Below, piece by piece: positions 700 to 29,672 of a stretch of DNA of 29,672 bases. Position 1 is the stretch's first letter. Each line of letters opens with the position of its first letter. The notes beneath the pieces are model-generated. The model saw only the letters and a program-made list of their open reading frames with translations, did not search any database and had not been told where the DNA came from. Position numbers and translations under genes: made by a program. This DNA comes from a virus: the IMG/VR virus record IMGVR_UViG_3300050166_000174, positions 1-29,672 of that record; one strand, 5' to 3'.

Positions 700-1304
700 T
701 CTGTTTCTTGTTCCTTTAATATCTTCTTAACCTTCTGAACTGTATCAAGTGATACATCACATATATCAGCGATTTTACGCAATGAATTAACACCAAGCTT
801 TAATTCCTTTACAACCTTCTTATAAGTGCTTAAAAAGTCTTCATTTGAAATCTTGCCACGTGTTGCACGTTGTTGATATTTACCAGCAGCTTTAGCAATT
901 GCAATACCTTGGGCTTGTGATTCTTTGATATTGTTTCTAGTTAGTTCTGCAACGTTTGCAAGTACATCTGAAATCATTTTAAAGATTGGGTTTGGTTTAC
1001 CTTTGGCAAAGCTTTCAATACCTAGATTTTCAACCTTCAAGGTTACATTCCTTGAATTGAAGTACTGGATTGTTTCTTGAATATTGAAGGCATCCCTTCC
1101 AATTCTGTCAATACTTTCGCAGCTGATATAATCAACTGTACCAGTTTCAATTGCTTTTTTCAACTCTTTGGCTGCTGGTCTATCTTTAAAGGGTACAGCA
1201 CCGCTTATTACATCAATAAAGATTAGTTCATCTGGGTGTTTACTTTGCAGTTGGCGTTGATTATTCTGGCTGCTGCTGCTGGTTCTTACATAGGTTGCTT
1301 TCAT
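684..1304 (-). CDS. small serine recombinase (resolvase/invertase family)
   Basis: Site-specific serine recombinase of 206 aa, the usual length of resolvases and invertases. The N-terminal YVRTSSSSQ matches the family's YxRxS block, giving Arg7 and catalytic Ser9. SIDRIGRD (64-71) matches the conserved LDRLGR motif with Arg67 and Arg70. Residues 104-145 match the long helix E region (FKMISDVLANVAELTRNNI, then GIAIAKAAGK). The C-terminus (about 168-195, SLRKIADICDVSLDTVQKV) is a helix-turn-helix of the HTH_7 type. In phages and plasmids such enzymes resolve multimers or invert fibre cassettes; I see no matched pair of crossover sites around the fibre gene, so dimer resolution of an extrachromosomal genome is the better guess. 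It is 1 nt downstream of the 77-aa gene and probably shares its transcript. Family certain, role inferred. Confidence 0.92.
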   Translation of the reverse strand: MKATYVRTSSSSQNNQRQLQSKHPDELIFIDVISGAVPFKDRPAAKELKKAIETGTVDYISCESIDRIGRDAFNIQETIQYFNSRNVTLKVENLGIESFAKGKPNPIFKMISDVLANVAELTRNNIKESQAQGIAIAKAAGKYQQRATRGKISNEDFLSTYKKVVKELKLGVNSLRKIADICDVSLDTVQKVKKILKEQETEKGIN

Positions 1305-1305
1305 A

Positions 1306-1539
1306 TTAGTTAAATTTAATCCAATTAGTTGAATCAGTTATTTCAATCCCTTTGTTAATCAATTGTTTTCTTGTTTGTATCTTAAATCCTTTTAAATCTG
1401 GGTAATTGTTTTTAAGGTCTTCTTTGGTGTATTCTTTGATTGATTCATCATCAACCCCTTTGTAATCCCAACCATCATATATTGTTGAACCGATAACTGC
1501 AAAGTGTGTATATCCTTTACCTAAAATTAATTTTCTCAT
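1306..1539 (-). CDS. hypothetical protein, 77 aa
   Basis: A short protein with no family I recognise. It has a compact YTHFAVIGSTIYDGWDYKG segment (10-28) followed by an acidic and basic helical stretch. It is immediately upstream of the recombinase (1 nt between stop and next ATG), so the two are likely translated from one message. Its start codon lies 3-4 nt after the 3' arm of a 16-bp inverted repeat, which could hide the start in the mRNA or bind a repressor. Confidence 0.65.
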   Translation of the reverse strand: MRKLILGKGYTHFAVIGSTIYDGWDYKGVDDESIKEYTKEDLKNNYPDLKGFKIQTRKQLINKGIEITDSTNWIKFN

Positions 1540-1542
1540 AGT

Positions 1543-1599
1543 GTTTGATTTGAATGTTAATAATTGAAATAACCACCAGAATCAACATTCAAATCAAAC
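1543..1599. repeat. perfect 16-bp inverted repeat before a start codon
   Basis: GTTTGATTTGAATGTT at 1543-1558 is the exact reverse complement of 1584-1599, with a 25-nt spacer. On the minus strand it follows the stop of the 111-aa gene and ends 3 nt before the ATG of the 77-aa gene. No T tract follows, so it is not an ordinary terminator. Plausible roles are a leader hairpin, an operator, or a binding site of the neighbouring serine recombinase. Confidence 0.75.
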
Positions 1600-1606
1600 T
1601 ACTTTA

Positions 1607-1942
1607 TTATTTATATTCGTTTATATATTCTATTTTCTTATCAATCCGTTCTTGTAGTTCATCAAAATAAACTTCGTGAACCGATTCTTTTATAGTTCCA
1701 TCATCATTGATAAGATGAAAACTATAAGTATCATTCCAAGCTAATGTTATAACCAGTAGCCCTTTGTGGTGATGTCCGTTAACAATCAAAAGCAAAGCTT
1801 TATCATAATAGTTAACCTTACTTTCAACGCCCCAACTCCAATATATTGAGCGGTTATGTTGAATAACTTGCAGCGTTTCTGCTGGGTTGAATTCTCTTTG
1901 TGCAAGAGTTTCATACAATTCATTTTTTATTATCTTTGTCAT
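1607..1942 (-). CDS. hypothetical protein, 111 aa
   Basis: A soluble protein of unknown function. Visible features are an HNRSIYWSWGVES segment (29-41), a strand-rich core with VNGHHHKGLLVITLAWND (54-71, a run of three histidines) and a charged helical C-terminus. The alternating strands followed by a helix suggest a small alpha/beta fold. It is the first gene of the left minus-strand group that contains the recombinase. Its upstream region, 1943-2600, holds operator-like repeats that may control it. Confidence 0.65.
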   Translation of the reverse strand: MTKIIKNELYETLAQREFNPAETLQVIQHNRSIYWSWGVESKVNYYDKALLLIVNGHHHKGLLVITLAWNDTYSFHLINDDGTIKESVHEVYFDELQERIDKKIEYINEYK

Positions 1943-1982
1943 ATCTAAATGTGTTTAATTCATTTGAATTGAATGCTGATTT

Positions 1983-2009
1983 AAGCGGTGTTACTAGCAC
2001 CGCTTTTTT
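1983..2009 (+). terminator. rho-independent-like terminator, plus strand
   Basis: Stem AAGCGGTG (1983-1990) with CACCGCTT (1998-2005), 7-nt loop, followed by a T run to 2009. It faces rightward although no convincing plus-strand gene ends here, so it may end a short or antisense RNA over the start of the 111-aa gene. Confidence 0.65.
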
Positions 2010-2084
2010 CTTTGGTGGTATTTCAATATTTCAATGTACTTACTGTTCCTTTTTTGAACACTTCAAAGATAATACTTATTTAAA

Positions 2085-2194
2085 TTGTACGCAAATTAAT
2101 CTATACATTTTTTACCGTACAATTAAAAATAATTTTACAACGTATTTATTGACTTGAAAGTGTACGGTTTGGTAGTACATTATTTACCATACAA
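2085..2194. promoter_or_regulatory. operator-like repeat cluster
   Basis: Two inverted pairs share the half-site TTGTACGG or close variants. The first is TTGTACG (2085-2091) with CGTACAA (2116-2122); the second is GTGTACGG (2160-2167) with CCATACAA (2187-2194). The right arms also form imperfect direct repeats of about 20 nt (TACATTTTTTACCGTACAAT at 2104-2123 and TACATTATTTACCATACAAT at 2177-2196). This is the pattern of repeated sites for a dimeric regulator. Confidence 0.5.
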
Positions 2195-2510
2195 TTTTAT
2201 TTTTTTTGCTGCTAATAAGTGTGTGAGGTTTTGAACTGGATTAAAACAAAAAACCACCAAACTTTTGATTTGATGGTGATTTCTGTTTTTTTTCTGGGGT
2301 TTGAATATTTTTGTGCGGCTGGGCAATATTTTTGAAGATATTTTAAATAATCTACAGCTTTTTATAAGAAGAAATAATTCAGATAGTTTTTATTAAATTG
2401 TAAATAACCGTTGCTATTTCTTTATTCATAGGTATTGTTAAGAACTAAAGCTGATTGTGAATAAGTTTGACTTTCTTTTTTTCTAAATTTTAACAATCTT
2501 TGTAAAACGT

Positions 2511-2540
2511 GAAATGAATCAATTGGCGTTGATTCATTTC
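2511..2540. repeat. perfect 12-bp hairpin/palindrome
   Basis: GAAATGAATCAA (2511-2522) pairs perfectly with TTGATTCATTTC (2529-2540) around a TTGGCG loop. No T tract follows on either strand, so an operator or a structured element in an RNA is more likely than a terminator. Confidence 0.6.
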
Positions 2541-2661
2541 AGATGGTTATCAGTATCCCCGATTAGATATTGAATGTTGTATGGTCTTTGACTTCCTTTA
2601 ATTTAATTGTTTACTATAGAGAAAAATATCTAGTAAACTAATAACTTTTAAAATAACTAAT

Positions 2662-12320: not shown

Positions 12321-12928
12321 TAATTTTTAAGTTGTTTTTTTCTTTGTAATTCAGCAATTTCTTGGTGAATTTTATTCTTTTCATTATCCATCATCAACTT
12401 TGTAAAAACTGTTAAATAGGGTAATTTTTGAATCTGTTCCCACCTTAAAATATCTTCTTTGGCTAATGAATCAATTGCATTCAAAACACCAAATCTTGAC
12501 ATCCTTTCTTTAGCGTTTACAGTTTCTACATTTATATCAAATGATTCATCTGTTAACTCGTTCAATTCCATATTTGAAATTGCAATAAGTTCTTCTTTGA
12601 TAAAGGAAATTATACCATATAATTGGGTAATTGTAAAGTCTAGTATCTGTTTTTCTGTCAGTCCAGTAACTAGCTTAATTGATTCAAAAACAGAAACAAT
12701 TGTTCCATCATTGAATGAGTTTCTTATATCAGTAACTTCACCAAAAGATAAAGACCTTATAGCTTTAATTGAAAGCATTTTAGGTTCGTTGTTATACCAT
12801 TTAGCTTTAGGGTTGTTTATTGTTTTTAAAGGCTTTAAAACATCTAAAATTGCCACATAACTATTGATGATGTTTTCATCTTGTATCTTAAAAAAATCAG
12901 ATACTTTATAATCTGTTATCTTTTCCAT
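12320..12928 (-). CDS. putative tail assembly chaperone, 202 aa
   Basis: A helical protein with features of tail assembly chaperones, which coat the tape measure during tail assembly. The N-terminal half looks like a helical chaperone domain (SLSFGEVTDIRNSFNDGT, about 60-77). The C-terminus has LRWEQIQKLPYLTVFTKLM, about 162-180, like the 'WEEVLxMPYxxFLxAL' tract of gpG/gpT-type proteins, then a charged helix. I see no slippery site that would extend it. Instead, an exact late-type promoter lies inside the gene, about 30 nt before in-frame Met120, so a separate 83-aa C-terminal product could be made. Its start overlaps the end of the large terminase by 13 nt. It is far from the tape measure, which is unusual for this family. 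Confidence 0.6.
   Translation of the reverse strand: MEKITDYKVSDFFKIQDENIINSYVAILDVLKPLKTINNPKAKWYNNEPKMLSIKAIRSLSFGEVTDIRNSFNDGTIVSVFESIKLVTGLTEKQILDFTITQLYGIISFIKEELIAISNMELNELTDESFDINVETVNAKERMSRFGVLNAIDSLAKEDILRWEQIQKLPYLTVFTKLMMDNEKNKIHQEIAELQRKKQLKN
12609..12638 (-). promoter_or_regulatory. late-type promoter P5 (inside a coding gene)
   Basis: Minus strand: CTTTACA (12638-12632), 17 nt, TATAAT (12614-12609), with TGG just before the -10. A start would fall near 12602, inside the chaperone-like gene and 31 nt before its Met120 codon. Confidence 0.75.
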
Positions 12929-14082
12929 TTTAACCCAAAGTAATTTGATTTCTTACTGAACTTCATTAAGAAAAAATATCTTGCAGCATCCAGAATATGA
13001 TTATAAGTATCAATTGGAACACTTAAAGAATTACCATCTTTATCTTTAGCCCAAACATAATTTTGTAACTCTTTTATAAGATTTACACTTGTTGATGTTA
13101 CTTTAAATGGTTGTTCTTGAATAAGCTGAATTCCATAGTTAATTGAATCTTTTCCTTTAACAACTGGTAATACCGTTAAATTATAAAAACGCAATTCTGC
13201 AATGGTTTTTGGTTCAGCTGAATCAGCATATATAACAGCATTCTTTGCGTTGCTGGATTTTATTAATGCTGCAAGTTGATTGTTAAGTAATCCCTTTTGA
13301 TAAATGATTTCATCAAGTATAATTTCACCGTTATATCTATAAACACCAACAAGTGCTGATGGGTCATTACTAAAACCAAAATCAAGCCCAGAACCTAACA
13401 ATTCAGCTTCTTTTGGTAGGAAATCAATTTCTGACCAATCAGTATAAATTGCACCAGTTTGAATACCCAATTGACCAAGCCCCATAACCTTCCATCTGTT
13501 TTTGTAGTAATCAGATGTTTCTGCTTTTTGCTCCCAGCTTTCAATTTCTTTTATAATTTTCTGGTCAAGAAATTCATTGTCTTTATAGGTTACAATCAAA
13601 AAATCAACATCATCTTTACCAATTAATTCTTTGTGAGCATAAAATGGTGCTGATGGGTTGTAATCAATAAATGTGAACTTTTTGGTTCTTACATTAAGTT
13701 CTTGGAATGCTTCAAACGTTATATTGTTTGCTTCATTCACAAATAAAATATCCCTACGTGAACCTCTTAACTTTGATGAATCTTCAGCTGAAAAAAATTC
13801 AAATGTTGATTTATTTAAAGTATATGTTCTATCTGTTTTGTTATGGTTCTTTTCATCATACAAACCCATTGAAGTAATTATATCAATAAAGTCTTTATAA
13901 GCACCTCTTTTAAGAACTGGAATTGATTCAGCAACGATTGAAACAAGCTGTTCACGCTGCAAAGAATGAATAATTAAATATTGAAGTATTGAATATGTTT
14001 TACCAGCTGATGTACCACCTTGAACAATACGAATTGGTGCTTTCAATGTACCAATTTTTGAAAATGCTGTAGTTGTTTTCAT
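12916..14082 (-). CDS. terL: terminase large subunit, 388 aa
   Basis: The DNA packaging motor: an ATPase plus a nuclease that cuts concatemers or circles and pumps DNA into the prohead. Walker A is GGTSAGKT (22-29); Walker B is ILFVNEAN (112-119) with catalytic Glu117, an Asn replacing the usual Asp before it as in several PBSX-like terminases. The RNase-H-fold nuclease follows with Asp234 (GLDFGFSND), Asp287 (IYADSAEP) and Asp358 or Asp365 (IDTYNHILDAARYF). The length is on the short side for terminases but both domains are complete. The gene starts with a TAATG overlap after the small subunit and overlaps the next gene by 13 nt. It belongs to the terminase_3/PBSX-like group as I remember it. 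Confidence 0.95.
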   Translation of the reverse strand: MKTTTAFSKIGTLKAPIRIVQGGTSAGKTYSILQYLIIHSLQREQLVSIVAESIPVLKRGAYKDFIDIITSMGLYDEKNHNKTDRTYTLNKSTFEFFSAEDSSKLRGSRRDILFVNEANNITFEAFQELNVRTKKFTFIDYNPSAPFYAHKELIGKDDVDFLIVTYKDNEFLDQKIIKEIESWEQKAETSDYYKNRWKVMGLGQLGIQTGAIYTDWSEIDFLPKEAELLGSGLDFGFSNDPSALVGVYRYNGEIILDEIIYQKGLLNNQLAALIKSSNAKNAVIYADSAEPKTIAELRFYNLTVLPVVKGKDSINYGIQLIQEQPFKVTSTSVNLIKELQNYVWAKDKDGNSLSVPIDTYNHILDAARYFFLMKFSKKSNYFGLKWKR

Positions 14083-24644: not shown

Positions 24645-24750
24645 AGTCCAAAAAAAGACTAAACAGTCCAAAAAAAGACTAAACAGTCCAAAAAAAGACT
24701 AAACAGTCCAAAAAAAGACTAAACAGTCCAAAAAAAGACTAAACAGTCCA
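24645..24750. repeat. five exact 20-bp iteron-like direct repeats
   Basis: The 20-bp unit AGTCCAAAAAAAGACTAAAC is repeated without mismatch at 24645, 24665, 24685, 24705 and 24725, then breaks off after AGTCCA at 24745-24750. Each unit has AGTC/GACT ends, so a dimer could bind symmetrically. The 20-bp period is within the 17-22 bp range of plasmid iterons. Read on the minus strand each unit is a tiny GACT/AGTC hairpin followed by seven Ts, so a weak terminator array is an alternative. Confidence 0.85.
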
Positions 24751-25052
24751 ACATCCAAAAAGCAACATTTCAACTGTAAAAACAAGTATTATTCGCTTCA
24801 TATCAATTATTTTACAATAATTTCAACTAAAAACTTGGTATTTGAATATTTCTATAGTAGTGTTGCGTAAATACATCGATAATTCAACTAGTATAAGAAA
24901 TACTTATTATTCGCTTTAACTTTATAAGATAATAATATAGTTGATTTTACTTGACTAATCGGCATTTTAGAAGTATCGTTGAAAATAATTGAAAATATTT
25001 TGGCTTTTGGTTAAATGTTAGATATTTATATAATGTAGTCTGAAATGATTAC

Positions 25053-25105
25053 CTCGGTGCTGGGGAGTAATTACCCCAGCTTCTAGTCCGAGTTACCAAC
25101 TAGAA
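25053..25105 (+). promoter_or_regulatory. pseudoknot-like structured leader of the Rep-like gene
   Basis: Three stems interlock: CTCGG (25053-25057) with CCGAG (25088-25092); GCTGGGG (25059-25065) with CCCCAGC (25074-25080); TTCTAGT (25081-25087) with ACTAGAA (25099-25105). CCGAG lies in the loop of the third stem, so the first and third stems form an H-type pseudoknot. A second ACTAGAA at 25115-25121 could compete. It ends 26 nt before the first ATG. Confidence 0.65.
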
Positions 25106-25131
25106 CAACATAACACTAGAATAAAAAAATT

Positions 25132-25173
25132 ATGAATGTCAACAACATTAACAATCCAAAACACCTATTATGA
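25132..25173 (+). CDS. possible 13-aa leader peptide overlapping the Rep-like start
   Basis: ATG at 25132 opens a 13-codon frame (MNVNNINNPKHLL) that overlaps the Rep-like start at 25136 in another frame. Leader peptides translated with a pseudoknot control Rep synthesis in some enteric plasmids. This could equally be chance. Confidence 0.25.
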   Translation: MNVNNINNPKHLL

Positions 25174-25828
25174 TGCGTTATTTTTCGCATCAGCTTCAAT
25201 GAATGATAAAAAACCATTCCACTTGATGCCATCAGAATTAAGATTACTTCAAAAATTAATTCACTATTCAAGCACCCAAGTAAACATAACTTGGTCAAGC
25301 GAAAATATTTCAAAACACATTTTTACAAGCATTACATCAATTGATAAATCGATTCAACGTCTTAAACAAAAGGGTTATATCAATGTATCAACCACACAAA
25401 GATTTGAAAAGGTAAAATCAAGAACAATTTTCATCAATTGGGAACAAATCGAAATGGTTAACCAATTAGCCATTGATTACATAGATGAAATTGAAGCATC
25501 TATTCAACCAGAAGCTGCCCCAGAACCATTAAAAGAAGTTCACCAGCCAGAAGCTGCACCAGAAGAAATTGAAGAACTGATTCAACCAGAAAATGAAGCT
25601 GATGAAACATCTTTAACCTATGTTAAGAATACATTAATTGAAAATAAGTATTTCAACGATTTAGATTTTCTTATTGCGGTTCAACCAAGATATAACAGAA
25701 AATACAAATTAGATAACAAGTTAATTGACAAAGAATATATGATGTATAAACGCAAAATGATAACCTTTGATGAAATGTTTATTAATCTTGAAGATATGAT
25801 TGAAACAAGCATCCAATTAGCATCTTAA
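25136..25828 (+). CDS. winged-helix protein, candidate replication initiator, 230 aa
   Basis: A DNA-binding protein. Residues about 28-108 form a winged helix: LMPSELRLLQKLIHYSS, then ITWSSENISKHI (50-61) and SITSIDKSIQRLKQKGYINV (64-83) as the recognition helix, followed by a wing. A low-complexity linker with repeated QPEAAPE (about 123-158) leads to a helical C-terminal domain (about 160-230). The layout, a wHTH plus linker and second domain, downstream of iteron-like repeats suggests a replication initiator, but a transcription regulator with the same fold is possible; I did not see a Rep_3 signature. It is the only rightward gene of the middle region and ends at a bidirectional terminator. 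Confidence 0.65.
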   Translation: MSTTLTIQNTYYDALFFASASMNDKKPFHLMPSELRLLQKLIHYSSTQVNITWSSENISKHIFTSITSIDKSIQRLKQKGYINVSTTQRFEKVKSRTIFINWEQIEMVNQLAIDYIDEIEASIQPEAAPEPLKEVHQPEAAPEEIEELIQPENEADETSLTYVKNTLIENKYFNDLDFLIAVQPRYNRKYKLDNKLIDKEYMMYKRKMITFDEMFINLEDMIETSIQLAS

Positions 25829-25834
25829 AATACA

Positions 25835-25860
25835 AAACCCAATCGTAATTGATTGGGTTT
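25835..25860. terminator. bidirectional terminator between convergent genes
   Basis: Perfect 10-bp stem AAACCCAATC (25835-25844) with GATTGGGTTT (25851-25860), 6-nt loop. It ends the Rep-like gene (plus) and lies 7 nt beyond the nuclease stop (minus). Confidence 0.85.
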
Positions 25861-25866
25861 CTTGTT

Positions 25867-26982
25867 TTATTTAACTTGAATTGCGTGTTGTGTGTTGATT
25901 ATGATTTCTGGTTTACCCTTATACATCTTAATCTTACCACCAACACAAATATTTTTTCCTTTATAGTATTCATCTGGTTTAAAATCAAAATTCTTTAATT
26001 TATCAGCATATATAACAATAGTTAATGGTGAATCTGGATATTCTGCACCAACATTTAATAAAATCATTCCATTTGAATCAAGAACCTTTGATGAATAAAC
26101 CTTGCCACAAGTATATACCAATTTACCTTCATATTCAGCTGATTTTGCAACATCAATATTTATAGATGTTTCAACAATATCTTCAACCACCTTTTTAGTA
26201 TCATTAGGGTTTGCAATGTATGTTACATTCTTAAAATAGTGTTCCAAAACAGCTGCAAGTCTTATTCCAGCATAAAGTAATTGATGTTTAATTATTGGAT
26301 AATTTGAATCAATATATTCATCAGTAACTTTTGCACCTTTGAAATCATAAACGTTTTTTAAATATAATCTTGATTCTTTAGCCCAAGCCAAAACATCAAT
26401 TTTCTTCATTGATGAATAATCAATATCCTTTACTGCATTTATTTTAAGAACTTCATCAAGCGTTAAGCCCTTATATTCAATAATATCTGAATCCCATTCA
26501 GCGTGAAGATTTGAACCCTTTCCAAAGAACGATACTTGAATTGTATTACCACCTTTATCATCATTATAACCAACGTGAAGCGGCTGGTGCAAATCACCAA
26601 TCAAGTGAAATAAATAAAATAATCTTGTTCTTACTTCATCATTGGATAAAGTTTTAATATTATCAAGGTCTTTAAGAGTTTTATTTAATATGCTTATGAT
26701 ATTTTCGCCAGATAATTCAGTTACTTCTGAACCCTTTTCAAAATCAATATAATGATATGGTTTCATAAAGTCAAAAGACTTGTCAGAACGCATTGAATCC
26801 ATCCAGTTTGCAGCATCTTCAATACTCATTCCATTAAGATAATTCAACACATTTTGTTTTGTCTTTGCATCAAGGTTATGAAATGCAATTTCAGCAACGA
26901 TTGAATGACCTTTTTTACCCCAAGCAAAACCATTTGTGGTTGATAGTATCAAAACCGATACTAGAAATAATATTTTTTTCAT
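25867..26982 (-). CDS. secreted S1/P1 nuclease with C-terminal OB-like domain, 371 aa
   Basis: A zinc-dependent single-strand nuclease/3'-nucleotidase exported to the periplasm or outside. I start at the ATG at 26982 (MKKILFLVSVLILSTTNGFA), a clear signal peptide cleaved before Trp21; the open frame extends 40 codons further but overlaps the neighbouring gene. Numbered from that start, the family's zinc ligands are all visible: Trp21, His26, Asp62, His77, His126, Asp130, His136, His160 and Asp164 (motifs HLIGDLHQPLHVG and NLHAEWD). After about residue 265 a second domain (about 280-371; YEGKLVYTCGKVYSSKVL to NIDVAK-like strands) has the strand pattern of an OB fold. It starts 10 nt after the membrane protein gene. 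Probably cargo rather than a lytic-cycle gene. Confidence 0.93.
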   Translation of the reverse strand: MKKILFLVSVLILSTTNGFAWGKKGHSIVAEIAFHNLDAKTKQNVLNYLNGMSIEDAANWMDSMRSDKSFDFMKPYHYIDFEKGSEVTELSGENIISILNKTLKDLDNIKTLSNDEVRTRLFYLFHLIGDLHQPLHVGYNDDKGGNTIQVSFFGKGSNLHAEWDSDIIEYKGLTLDEVLKINAVKDIDYSSMKKIDVLAWAKESRLYLKNVYDFKGAKVTDEYIDSNYPIIKHQLLYAGIRLAAVLEHYFKNVTYIANPNDTKKVVEDIVETSINIDVAKSAEYEGKLVYTCGKVYSSKVLDSNGMILLNVGAEYPDSPLTIVIYADKLKNFDFKPDEYYKGKNICVGGKIKMYKGKPEIIINTQHAIQVK

Positions 26983-26992
26983 AGTAATTTTT

Positions 26993-27991
26993 TTATAAAT
27001 CTTTGATTTTACAATATCCAATTTGTGGGATTCCATTTCTATTGATAAATGATATTTTTGCCCAGACTTTATATTTTTTAATAATTTCAACTTCTGAACC
27101 AATTGGTATTATAATAAAATCTTTATAATTATTTATTGCTTTGTGTTTTACACCAATTTCTTTTTTGCTTATTATTTCTTCTGAAATATTTGAAGTGGTA
27201 CTTTCAAAATATTTAGTGAGAAATATACCAACAAGTATCATTGCTAATCCATAAGTATATTGATGGTTAATAAATTTTGATAAACCTTTTAATATCGTAT
27301 TTAATTTATTAAAACTTTCATTTTTATGTTCAATAAGAATTTCAAAAGCTTGATTAATGATATTAAAAATTTCGATTAATTCAGATTCATTAATTTCTGC
27401 ATTTTCACAATCCAAATTTACTGATACAGCTAAACCATCAACTAAAGTTGAATTTTCATCTATAAATTTTAAATCCAGAAACTTTTCAATATTTGAATTA
27501 AACTTATCAAATCCTTTTGAATATTGTTTAACTAAACTGTCATTTATAAATGCTGCTGGATATGTTTCACGCCAATTATAACTGTCTGCTAAATCGAAAA
27601 AACTTGAAAGATATTTAACAGAATTATTTGTTGATAAATTGTCTATAATATTTGAAGCTGTTAAACTCGATAAACTAGCTAAAATATTTTTTGAACTATT
27701 ATTTACTACATCACCTTCATATTGTTTCATCATTTGGGTAACGTTACCAAATACAGCCATTAATGGATTATAAGTAACTGGTTCAACATATATTTTTTTT
27801 AGAAGCATATCAACACCAGACATAGCTGATAATGTTGTATTTTTATGTATAGTATTATACATACTACTATTTAAAATTCCATTTACACCAGATAAAGCGG
27901 CTAATGATGAATTACCAATACCAGCAATATCTTTTATTTTATCATAAGCTGATGTTACACCAGAAATTTTTCTAAACAAGTCATCATTCAT
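26993..27991 (-). CDS. membrane-anchored protein with C-terminal SH3-like domain, 332 aa
   Basis: A protein I cannot name. Residues 1-240 are mainly helical, Ser/Asn-rich with weak internal similarity (IAGIGNSSLAALSGVNGILN and TTLSAMSGVDMLL both contain a 'LSxxSGV' segment). One transmembrane segment is at about 245-262 (YTYGLAMILVGIFLTKYF). The C-terminus (about 281-332) looks like a bacterial SH3 domain (IIIPIGSEVEIIKKYKVWAK then IPQIGYCKIKDL). A helical sensor in front of a single TM and an SH3 domain resembles abortive-infection or cell-wall-sensing effectors, but that is inference. It is preceded by a textbook Bacteroidota promoter, so it is likely expressed in the resting lysogen. Confidence 0.75.
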   Translation of the reverse strand: MNDDLFRKISGVTSAYDKIKDIAGIGNSSLAALSGVNGILNSSMYNTIHKNTTLSAMSGVDMLLKKIYVEPVTYNPLMAVFGNVTQMMKQYEGDVVNNSSKNILASLSSLTASNIIDNLSTNNSVKYLSSFFDLADSYNWRETYPAAFINDSLVKQYSKGFDKFNSNIEKFLDLKFIDENSTLVDGLAVSVNLDCENAEINESELIEIFNIINQAFEILIEHKNESFNKLNTILKGLSKFINHQYTYGLAMILVGIFLTKYFESTTSNISEEIISKKEIGVKHKAINNYKDFIIIPIGSEVEIIKKYKVWAKISFINRNGIPQIGYCKIKDL

Positions 27992-28193: not shown

Positions 28194-29672
28194 ATGAGGG
28201 AAGCAAATTTGTTATCAATTATTAGTGCCTATACAAGATTATCAAAAGAATTATTTCTAAAATACTTAAATTATTTCAGAATAGATATTAAACTTGCAGA
28301 ATTAGATGATTTGAAAATATTAATTTCTAATTTAGAATTACTAGATAACGATATTAACATATTTGATAAATACTTTATTGGTTATAAAATACCTCAAATA
28401 GGAAAAGAATTCGATTTGTTAAGAATAGGTGAAAATGAAATTATTAATATTGAATTAAAAAAAGAAAGTACTGTTGAGGAAATAAAAAAGCAGCTAATTA
28501 AAAATAAATATTACTTAGCTTTTTTAAATAAAGAATCTCATTATTTCAGTTATGTTTCATCAGAAAATAAATTTTATAGTATTGATGATAATGATAATTT
28601 AATTGAAGTAAATATTTTACTTATTTTAACTCTTTTAAAAAGTCAAAAAATTGTAACACTAAATAATATTGATGATTTATTTAACCCTTTAGATTATCTA
28701 GTATCACCATTTAATTCAACCCAAAAATTTATTGATGGTAAATATTTTTTAACCCAACAGCAATATTTAATTAAAAAAGAGATACTAAAACTATGTGATA
28801 ATGTACCCTCTTTTTTTTCAATTAAAGGAAAAGCTGGAACAGGGAAAACTTTGCTTACTTATGATTTAGCAAAAGAATATATTGGATTAAAGTTAAGTAC
28901 ACTAATAATTCATTGTGGATATTTAAATAATGGTCATAATGAAATTTGCGAAAAATTAAATTGGGATATTAAACCAGTAAAGTTTGCGTTAAATATTAAA
29001 TATTCAGAATATAGTATTGTTATAATTGATGAAGCTCAAAGAATACAACAACATCAATTAAAACATATTATAGAACAAATTAAAAGCAATTCTAGTATTT
29101 GTATATTTTCTTATGATGAAGAACAATGTTTAAAGAAAGTTGAAATGGACAACAACATAGAATCTTTTATAAATACTGAATCCAATCCTAAAATTTTTAA
29201 GTTAAGTAATAAGATAAGAACTAATAAAGAAATTGCATCATTTATTAAATGTTTGTTTAACAAAAAAGCAATTTACGAAAATCAAATAAATAAAAATGTT
29301 GAATTAAATTATTTCAAAAATAATATAGAAGCAAAACAATATTTAGAATTTTTAAATGCAAATAATTGGACAGTAATAAATTATACAACTTCAAGTTATG
29401 ATGTATTACCTTATGATAAATATTTACTTGAAGATGTTGGCAATGTTCATAGTGTAATAGGACAAGAATTTGACAATGTAGTTGCTGTTATTGATAGTCA
29501 TTTTTATTACAAACCAGATAATACTTTAGCAACAAAAAATTATAAAAAAACTCCACATTTTCATCCATCAAAAATGTTATTTCAAATTATGACAAGAACT
29601 AGAAAAAAAATAAATTTAGTGATAATCAATAATGAAGAGATTTTAGAAAGATGTATGAGCATTCTAAATTGA
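28194..29672 (+). CDS. PD-(D/E)XK nuclease-SF1 helicase fusion (DUF2075-like), 492 aa
   Basis: A two-domain DNA-processing enzyme. The N-terminal domain contains EFDLLRIGENEIINIELKK (72-90) with Asp74, Glu87 and Lys89 in PD-(D/E)XK order. The helicase domain has Walker A GKAGTGKT (212-219), Walker B IVIIDEAQ (275-282), motif III ICIFSYDEEQ (302-311), FKLSNKIRTNKEI (335-347), VGNVHSVIGQEFDNVVAVID (about 437-456) and the late MTRTRKK motif with arginine finger. This order fits the DUF2075 branch of SF1. Such nuclease-helicase proteins occur in anti-phage defence, for example Nhi-type single-gene systems, though the exact family is not established here. The gene is visibly richer in A/T than the virion genes, suggesting separate acquisition. 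It faces away from the membrane-SH3/nuclease pair. Confidence 0.88.
   Translation: MREANLLSIISAYTRLSKELFLKYLNYFRIDIKLAELDDLKILISNLELLDNDINIFDKYFIGYKIPQIGKEFDLLRIGENEIINIELKKESTVEEIKKQLIKNKYYLAFLNKESHYFSYVSSENKFYSIDDNDNLIEVNILLILTLLKSQKIVTLNNIDDLFNPLDYLVSPFNSTQKFIDGKYFLTQQQYLIKKEILKLCDNVPSFFSIKGKAGTGKTLLTYDLAKEYIGLKLSTLIIHCGYLNNGHNEICEKLNWDIKPVKFALNIKYSEYSIVIIDEAQRIQQHQLKHIIEQIKSNSSICIFSYDEEQCLKKVEMDNNIESFINTESNPKIFKLSNKIRTNKEIASFIKCLFNKKAIYENQINKNVELNYFKNNIEAKQYLEFLNANNWTVINYTTSSYDVLPYDKYLLEDVGNVHSVIGQEFDNVVAVIDSHFYYKPDNTLATKNYKKTPHFHPSKMLFQIMTRTRKKINLVIINNEEILERCMSILN

Follow-up and report, generated by a model that had tools for sequence, protein, structure and literature searches.

A covariation-supported leader RNA with two candidate pseudoknot states precedes unrelated replication genes of Flavobacteriaceae phages and prophages

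Introduction

Translation of the IncI plasmid gene repZ depends on a pseudoknot in its mRNA, and the antisense Inc RNA blocks this pseudoknot (PMC8383071). In phage T4, gene 32 is preceded by a 5' pseudoknot, from which a loose tail extends across the start (PMC3014915). Bacteroidia ribosomes use no Shine-Dalgarno pairing (PMC9976891). Flavobacterium johnsoniae mRNAs tend to be unpaired at positions −20 to +20, secondary structure tunes initiation, and bS1 is placed to contact the mRNA at −12 to −15 (PMC6847099).

Here we analyse a leader RNA in a virus record of 29,672 bases (the window, meaning the whole stretch of DNA that was studied) and in related phages and prophages. Like the rep leaders of IncI-alpha, IncB and IncL-M plasmids (e.g., ColIb-P9 repZ), it has a pseudoknot in the leader of an initiator gene, which in the plasmids is thought to set the amount of initiator. 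Unlike those leaders, the phage element has no conserved leader peptide and occurs in hosts without Shine-Dalgarno-based initiation; its knot is compact, of the H type, and carries a separate hairpin within loop 1, and another matching 3' arm lies shortly before the start. With gene 32 of T4 and T2 it shares the setting of a phage replication gene, a 5' pseudoknot and, spanning the start region, a tail that is rich in A+U and unstructured, whereas the hairpin in loop 1, the two alternative 3' arms and the mutually unrelated downstream proteins are its own. No single regulated protein family of the gene 32 type was found across its members. The repressor of the rpsO (S15) operator is the encoded ribosomal protein, whereas the phage element has two candidate pseudoknot states that share one strand. 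The preQ1 and SAM-II riboswitches contain an H-type pseudoknot near the start codon. The phage element resembles them in this respect and differs in having no conserved ligand-binding core. We make no claim that it belongs to the IncI repZ or the gene 32 system.

Results and Discussion

A compact pseudoknot and a repeated arm in the rep leader

The leader lies directly upstream of a gene for a 230-aa Rep-like protein (25136–25828, plus strand, ATG at 25136). In profile comparison it weakly matched DnaD-like proteins and further families involved in replication initiation, pointing to a winged-helix initiator; an AlphaFold model of Rep made without an alignment was uninformative (pLDDT 34). The first-pass annotation of the window had described three perfect stems of 5, 7 and 7 bp in H-type pseudoknot order at 25053–25121, and the exact coordinates, all on the plus strand, agree with it. 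Stem S1 joins CTCGG (25053–25057) to CCGAG (25088–25092). Inside loop 1 of the pseudoknot lies hairpin H (25059–25080), in which the 7 bp of GCTGGGG (25059–25065) and CCCCAGC (25074–25080) enclose the loop AGTAATTA. S3a, the 5' arm of stem S3 (TTCTAGT, 25081–25087), is separated by 0 nt from the 3' arm of S1, and S1 and S3 interlock. This strand has two candidate partners with the sequence ACTAGAA: the proximal C1 (25099–25105), which would form pseudoknot PK1, and the distal C2 (25115–25121, or −21 to −15 relative to the Rep start), which would form PK2. No G occurs among the window's 25 spacer nucleotides.

The exact start of rep in the window is uncertain, as the upstream ATG at 25132 has an A at −3, whereas the ATG at 25136 has a T. 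A 13-codon frame overlapping the start, which the first-pass annotation had pointed out, is real (25132–25173, plus strand). It is not conserved, it opens 4 nt ahead of Rep and closes within rep, downstream of the whole structure, and it is probably not part of the element. The window, L258 and L440 have promoter-like sites at a good distance upstream of the element. In L258 and L440 these are perfect sites of Bacteroidetes type, at −269 and −289, respectively. In the window, the probable promoter of the rep transcript (24951–24981, plus strand) was called solely from its match to the consensus (TTG-N20-TATCGTTG, with one mismatch to TAnnTTTG). Its place upstream of the leader does not suggest that transcription begins downstream of 25053, which was the finding expected to speak against the element.

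Several other features surround rep in the window. Five perfect iteron-like 20-bp repeats lie about 400 bp upstream of the leader and rep; in the array at 24645–24751 the 20-mer AGTCCAAAAAAAGACTAAAC is present in 5.3 perfect copies, and an AGTC..GACT dyad lies in each. A search of viral contigs for this exact sequence found none, and other iteron-like repeats precede rep in L256. The early rep coding sequence holds a perfect hairpin, GATGCG/CGCATC (25171–25190), and a terminator-like hairpin of the intrinsic type is predicted 3' of the gene (25835–25860, plus strand). Directly after rep follows an S1/P1 nuclease gene with a signal-peptide-like stretch (25867–27102, minus strand), which is unusual cargo for a phage, and a Schlafen-type/PhoH-like helicase gene is open at the record end (28194–29672, plus strand).

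Relatives that carry the same architecture

Taken by itself, the window is only moderately unusual. In simulation, 329 windows of the same composition gave 21 matches to the bare 5/7/7 descriptor, an expectation of 0.064 per window, and the nested fold of the leader has a z-score of −2.7. As these chance tests are suggestive and not decisive, relatives were sought. Searches with the Rep protein found no relatives in viral contigs, GTDB genomes, phages or plasmids, and BLAST of leaders against phages and plasmids returned chance matches only. A search of viral contigs for the pattern of stem letters gave 65 matches, all of which were due to chance on inspection. Flavobacterium phages and prophages encode relatives of the window's terminase and capsid proteins, and it was solely via capsid-protein neighbours that relatives were reached.

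Through the capsid protein we reached L258, which is a Flavobacterium aquaticum prophage; strain CGMCC 1.12398 of this species carries a member. The leader of the replication-region gene of L258 reads CTTCGG, hairpin CCTATGGG..CCCATAGG, TTTTGCC, CCGAAG, GGCAAAA and again GGCAAAA; the duplicated arm is present. A strict descriptor run over low-GC loci (4.1 Mb) matched only the window and L258. In L256, whose capsid protein is 50% identical, TTCCTTT faces two copies of AAAGGAA, and in L434, from a Flavobacteriaceae genome, TCCAGT faces two copies of ACTGGA. A capsid profile applied to 400 Flavobacterium genomes yielded three new prophages (L439, L440 and L441), which were picked without regard to the RNA. 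The element was present in all three: TTCTACT with AGTAGAA twice in L441, TTCTACT with GGTAGAA and AGTAGAA in L439, and TTCTGTT with AACAGAA twice in L440. The Rep of L441 is a true homologue of the window Rep (38% identity over 102 aa). Together with the window, these six Flavobacteriaceae phages or prophages make up the seven strong members, whose letters differ and in which the element is always found in the leader of a replication gene.

A weaker, eighth form of the element accompanies the Rep homologues L448/L449, in which C1 (AACCAC) is unlike C2 (ACCCA), yet both are able to pair with GTGGGTT. The element is absent from three further Rep homologues (L450, L451 and L452) and from the winged-helix gene L435. 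A covariance model built from three members recovered those three and one false positive, L446, in an unrelated coding region. One genome holds, 3.2 kb apart, the same Rep homologue twice in identical form (L448 and L454), with the weaker element and flanked by transposase-like genes. The same ComM/Mg-chelatase-like gene lies beside the L439 and L440 prophages (12479–13330 and 198–1049, respectively), marking a common integration place in two Flavobacterium genomes; in L440, a 595-aa serine-recombinase-like protein is encoded next to it (1127–2914).

Winged-helix initiators lie downstream of the element in five strong members. L440 encodes a BT4734-like/PriCT, primase-like protein and L258 a 535-aa protein without a family match, neither of which is a winged-helix homologue. 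Because homology does not extend to all of these genes, a single common autoregulatory protein is unlikely. This bears on autogenous control as in T4 gene 32, in which a phage protein, be it the one for replication or a different one, would repress its own translation by binding to the pseudoknot along with the A-rich tail. The order of a 5' pseudoknot and an unstructured A-rich tail running into the start does resemble gene 32 (PMC3014915), but the RNA architecture is kept in front of at least three unrelated protein types, the helix sequences vary freely and so offer no conserved protein recognition sequence, and the covariation of C2 with S3a would be left unexplained. We therefore consider autogenous control very unlikely. 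The L258 protein (952–2559, minus strand), which has no Pfam or PHROG match, occupies the place of the replication initiator in other members, and its motifs (DLKNSQFAIL... and KHDSLIV) are reminiscent of a family-A polymerase palm.

Covariation supports the helices and both alternative pairings

As MAFFT alignments of the leaders were structurally incorrect, covariation was counted on an alignment of the seven strong members built by hand around the structure. The number of sequences is small, and some of them are related to each other (L439/L441). The paired fraction was 97% for S1 and 100% each for H, S3-C1 and S3-C2, and the pairs that changed on both sides numbered four in S1 and six in each of the other three helices. 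None of 2000 shuffles reached the observed paired fraction. The exceptions to canonical pairing were a broken S1 pair in L256 (an A.G mismatch) and a G.U pair within S3-C1 of L439. In most members, C1 and C2 are each exactly reverse-complementary to S3a, and S3a is complementary to both in all seven, which upholds the first-pass observation that the second ACTAGAA just before the start allows two alternative pairings.

Because a hand-made alignment favours the structure around which it was built, a separate test of specificity was run. A broad descriptor requiring the duplicated arm matched all seven replication-gene leaders (scores 20–24.5), against a single match, at score 14, in 60,000 simulated leaders. 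Among 2963 real ATG-start leaders of low-GC loci, it matched exactly six, all of them members; L258 starts with TTG and falls outside this set. As the descriptor was written after the first members were known, and its loop limit was later widened for L439–L441, its sensitivity is not independent of the members, whereas its specificity is. Covariation together with the simulated and real leaders rules out a chance fold.

The comparison of these sequences thus supports the S1, H and S3 helices as well as both alternative pairings. The first-pass annotation had proposed looking for covariation in homologues; far from lacking it, all three helices covary. No Rfam family matched any of the seven strong members above its gathering score, and no account of pseudoknots in Flavobacterium phages was found in the open-licence literature. 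As far as we found, the element is an apparently undescribed RNA, and the earlier suggestion of a new RNA element is strongly supported by the covariation in relatives and the lack of an Rfam match.

Compact pseudoknots are common in small riboswitches, which could favour reading the element as one of them. Across the members, no unpaired core suited to ligand binding is conserved, which argues against a metabolite riboswitch, as does the lack of an Rfam match. With chance countered by covariation and by the specificity of the descriptor, we regard a riboswitch or a chance fold as extremely improbable.

Complementarity could also arise in DNA, if S3a, C1 and C2 were three half-sites of an operator for a DNA-binding repressor, perhaps Rep itself. 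The exact reverse complementarity in most members would fit such half-sites, as would the winged-helix nature of Rep and the AGTC..GACT repeats upstream of rep in the window. An operator leaves unexplained why S1 and H covary and are packed around S3a nearly without linkers. Its helical phasing would be broken by the free spacing of the strands, with 8–17 nt between S3a and C1 and 8–27 nt between C1 and C2. The G.U pair in L439 and the non-identical C1 and C2 of L448 fit it poorly, and the L440 and L258 proteins are not winged-helix homologues. An operator is accordingly a highly improbable explanation.

A candidate two-state switch in front of the start codon

Linkers and loops are A-rich and conserved in neither length nor sequence, the loop of hairpin H included. 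The place of C2 is constant: it lies between −21 and −9 from the start codon in all members. C2 is thus within or at the edge of the region from −20 to +20, and it overlaps or flanks −12 to −15 (cf. the initiation data from F. johnsoniae). As this is the docking site of the ribosome, PK2 is expected to block initiation. The stacking energy of S3 is nearly constant across the seven members (−10.5 to −12.1 kcal/mol) with differing letters. PK1 and PK2 have equal stem energies and differ in the crossing loop, which is 3–10 nt in PK1 versus 22–42 nt in PK2. Through its longer loop, PK2 is the weaker of the two, and it may be rare without a helper. As C2 stays complementary to S3a, both pairings are apparently under selection.

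These features led us to propose that the leader of the rep mRNA is a two-state translational switch with two mutually exclusive pseudoknots, a reading to which we give a probability of roughly 60%. What the sequence comparison shows is the fold, the conservation of both pairings, the constant position of C2 and the association with replication genes. We infer that control would act at the level of translation, and likewise which state would be on and what would shift the balance. Hairpin H and stem S1 would form a scaffold that presents the 7-nt strand S3a. Pairing of S3a with C1 would give the compact H-type PK1 and leave C2 and the A-rich start region single-stranded. Pairing with C2 would give PK2, with a 7-bp helix at about −20 to −14 from the start codon, where the 30S subunit must dock. 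During transcription, PK1 would form first, favoured by its shorter loop, and the default would be translation on. A factor or condition that blocks C1 or stabilises PK2 would lower translation of the replication protein. That C1 and C2 of L448 are not identical and can both pair with S3a counts in favour of a switch.

Two other readings accept the pseudoknot and assign it a different role. The element may be static, a 5' pseudoknot with a role in mRNA stability or in setting the expression level, for which the two arm copies would be redundant partners. A constitutive pseudoknot would covary too, and the pairing with the shorter loop is expected to dominate thermodynamically. Redundancy does not explain why C2 has a fixed place before the start in all members, nor why its complementarity to S3a is kept at least as well as that of C1. 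We judge a static role unlikely.

The second is copy control of the IncI/IncB type, in which a counter-transcribed antisense RNA would stop formation of a pseudoknot required for rep translation. IncI repZ provides the precedent (PMC8383071), the phage pseudoknot adjoins the start in a replication-gene leader, and antisense promoter-like sites are somewhat in excess (18 versus 7.3 expected, double counting included). These sites occur at no conserved place, and neither the sequence nor the length of the hairpin loop is conserved. To our knowledge, IncI leaders contain no duplicated 3' arm. The first-pass annotation had drawn this parallel, with a leader peptide and a pseudoknot setting Rep copy number. 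With a pseudoknot ahead of a replication gene, the phage element matches it in function only; for the leader peptide the parallel fails, as no small frame is conserved across nine leaders. Such copy control seems unlikely to us.

Returning to the two-state switch, the odds are about even that the element represents a new class among the cis-regulatory RNAs of bacteria: a leader that is bistable through two mutually exclusive pseudoknots sharing one strand, which serves as a module before unrelated replication genes of Flavobacterium phages and controls the start of viral replication in non-Shine-Dalgarno hosts. As it is used before unrelated replication genes, it is the RNA rather than the protein that appears to be the conserved part of the control. 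One strand that is kept complementary to two partners is an unusual and directly testable design. Little is known about leaders that switch translation in hosts without Shine-Dalgarno initiation. If our reading is true, Bacteroidota phages would possess a covariation-backed regulatory RNA at the step that decides whether the prophage replicates.
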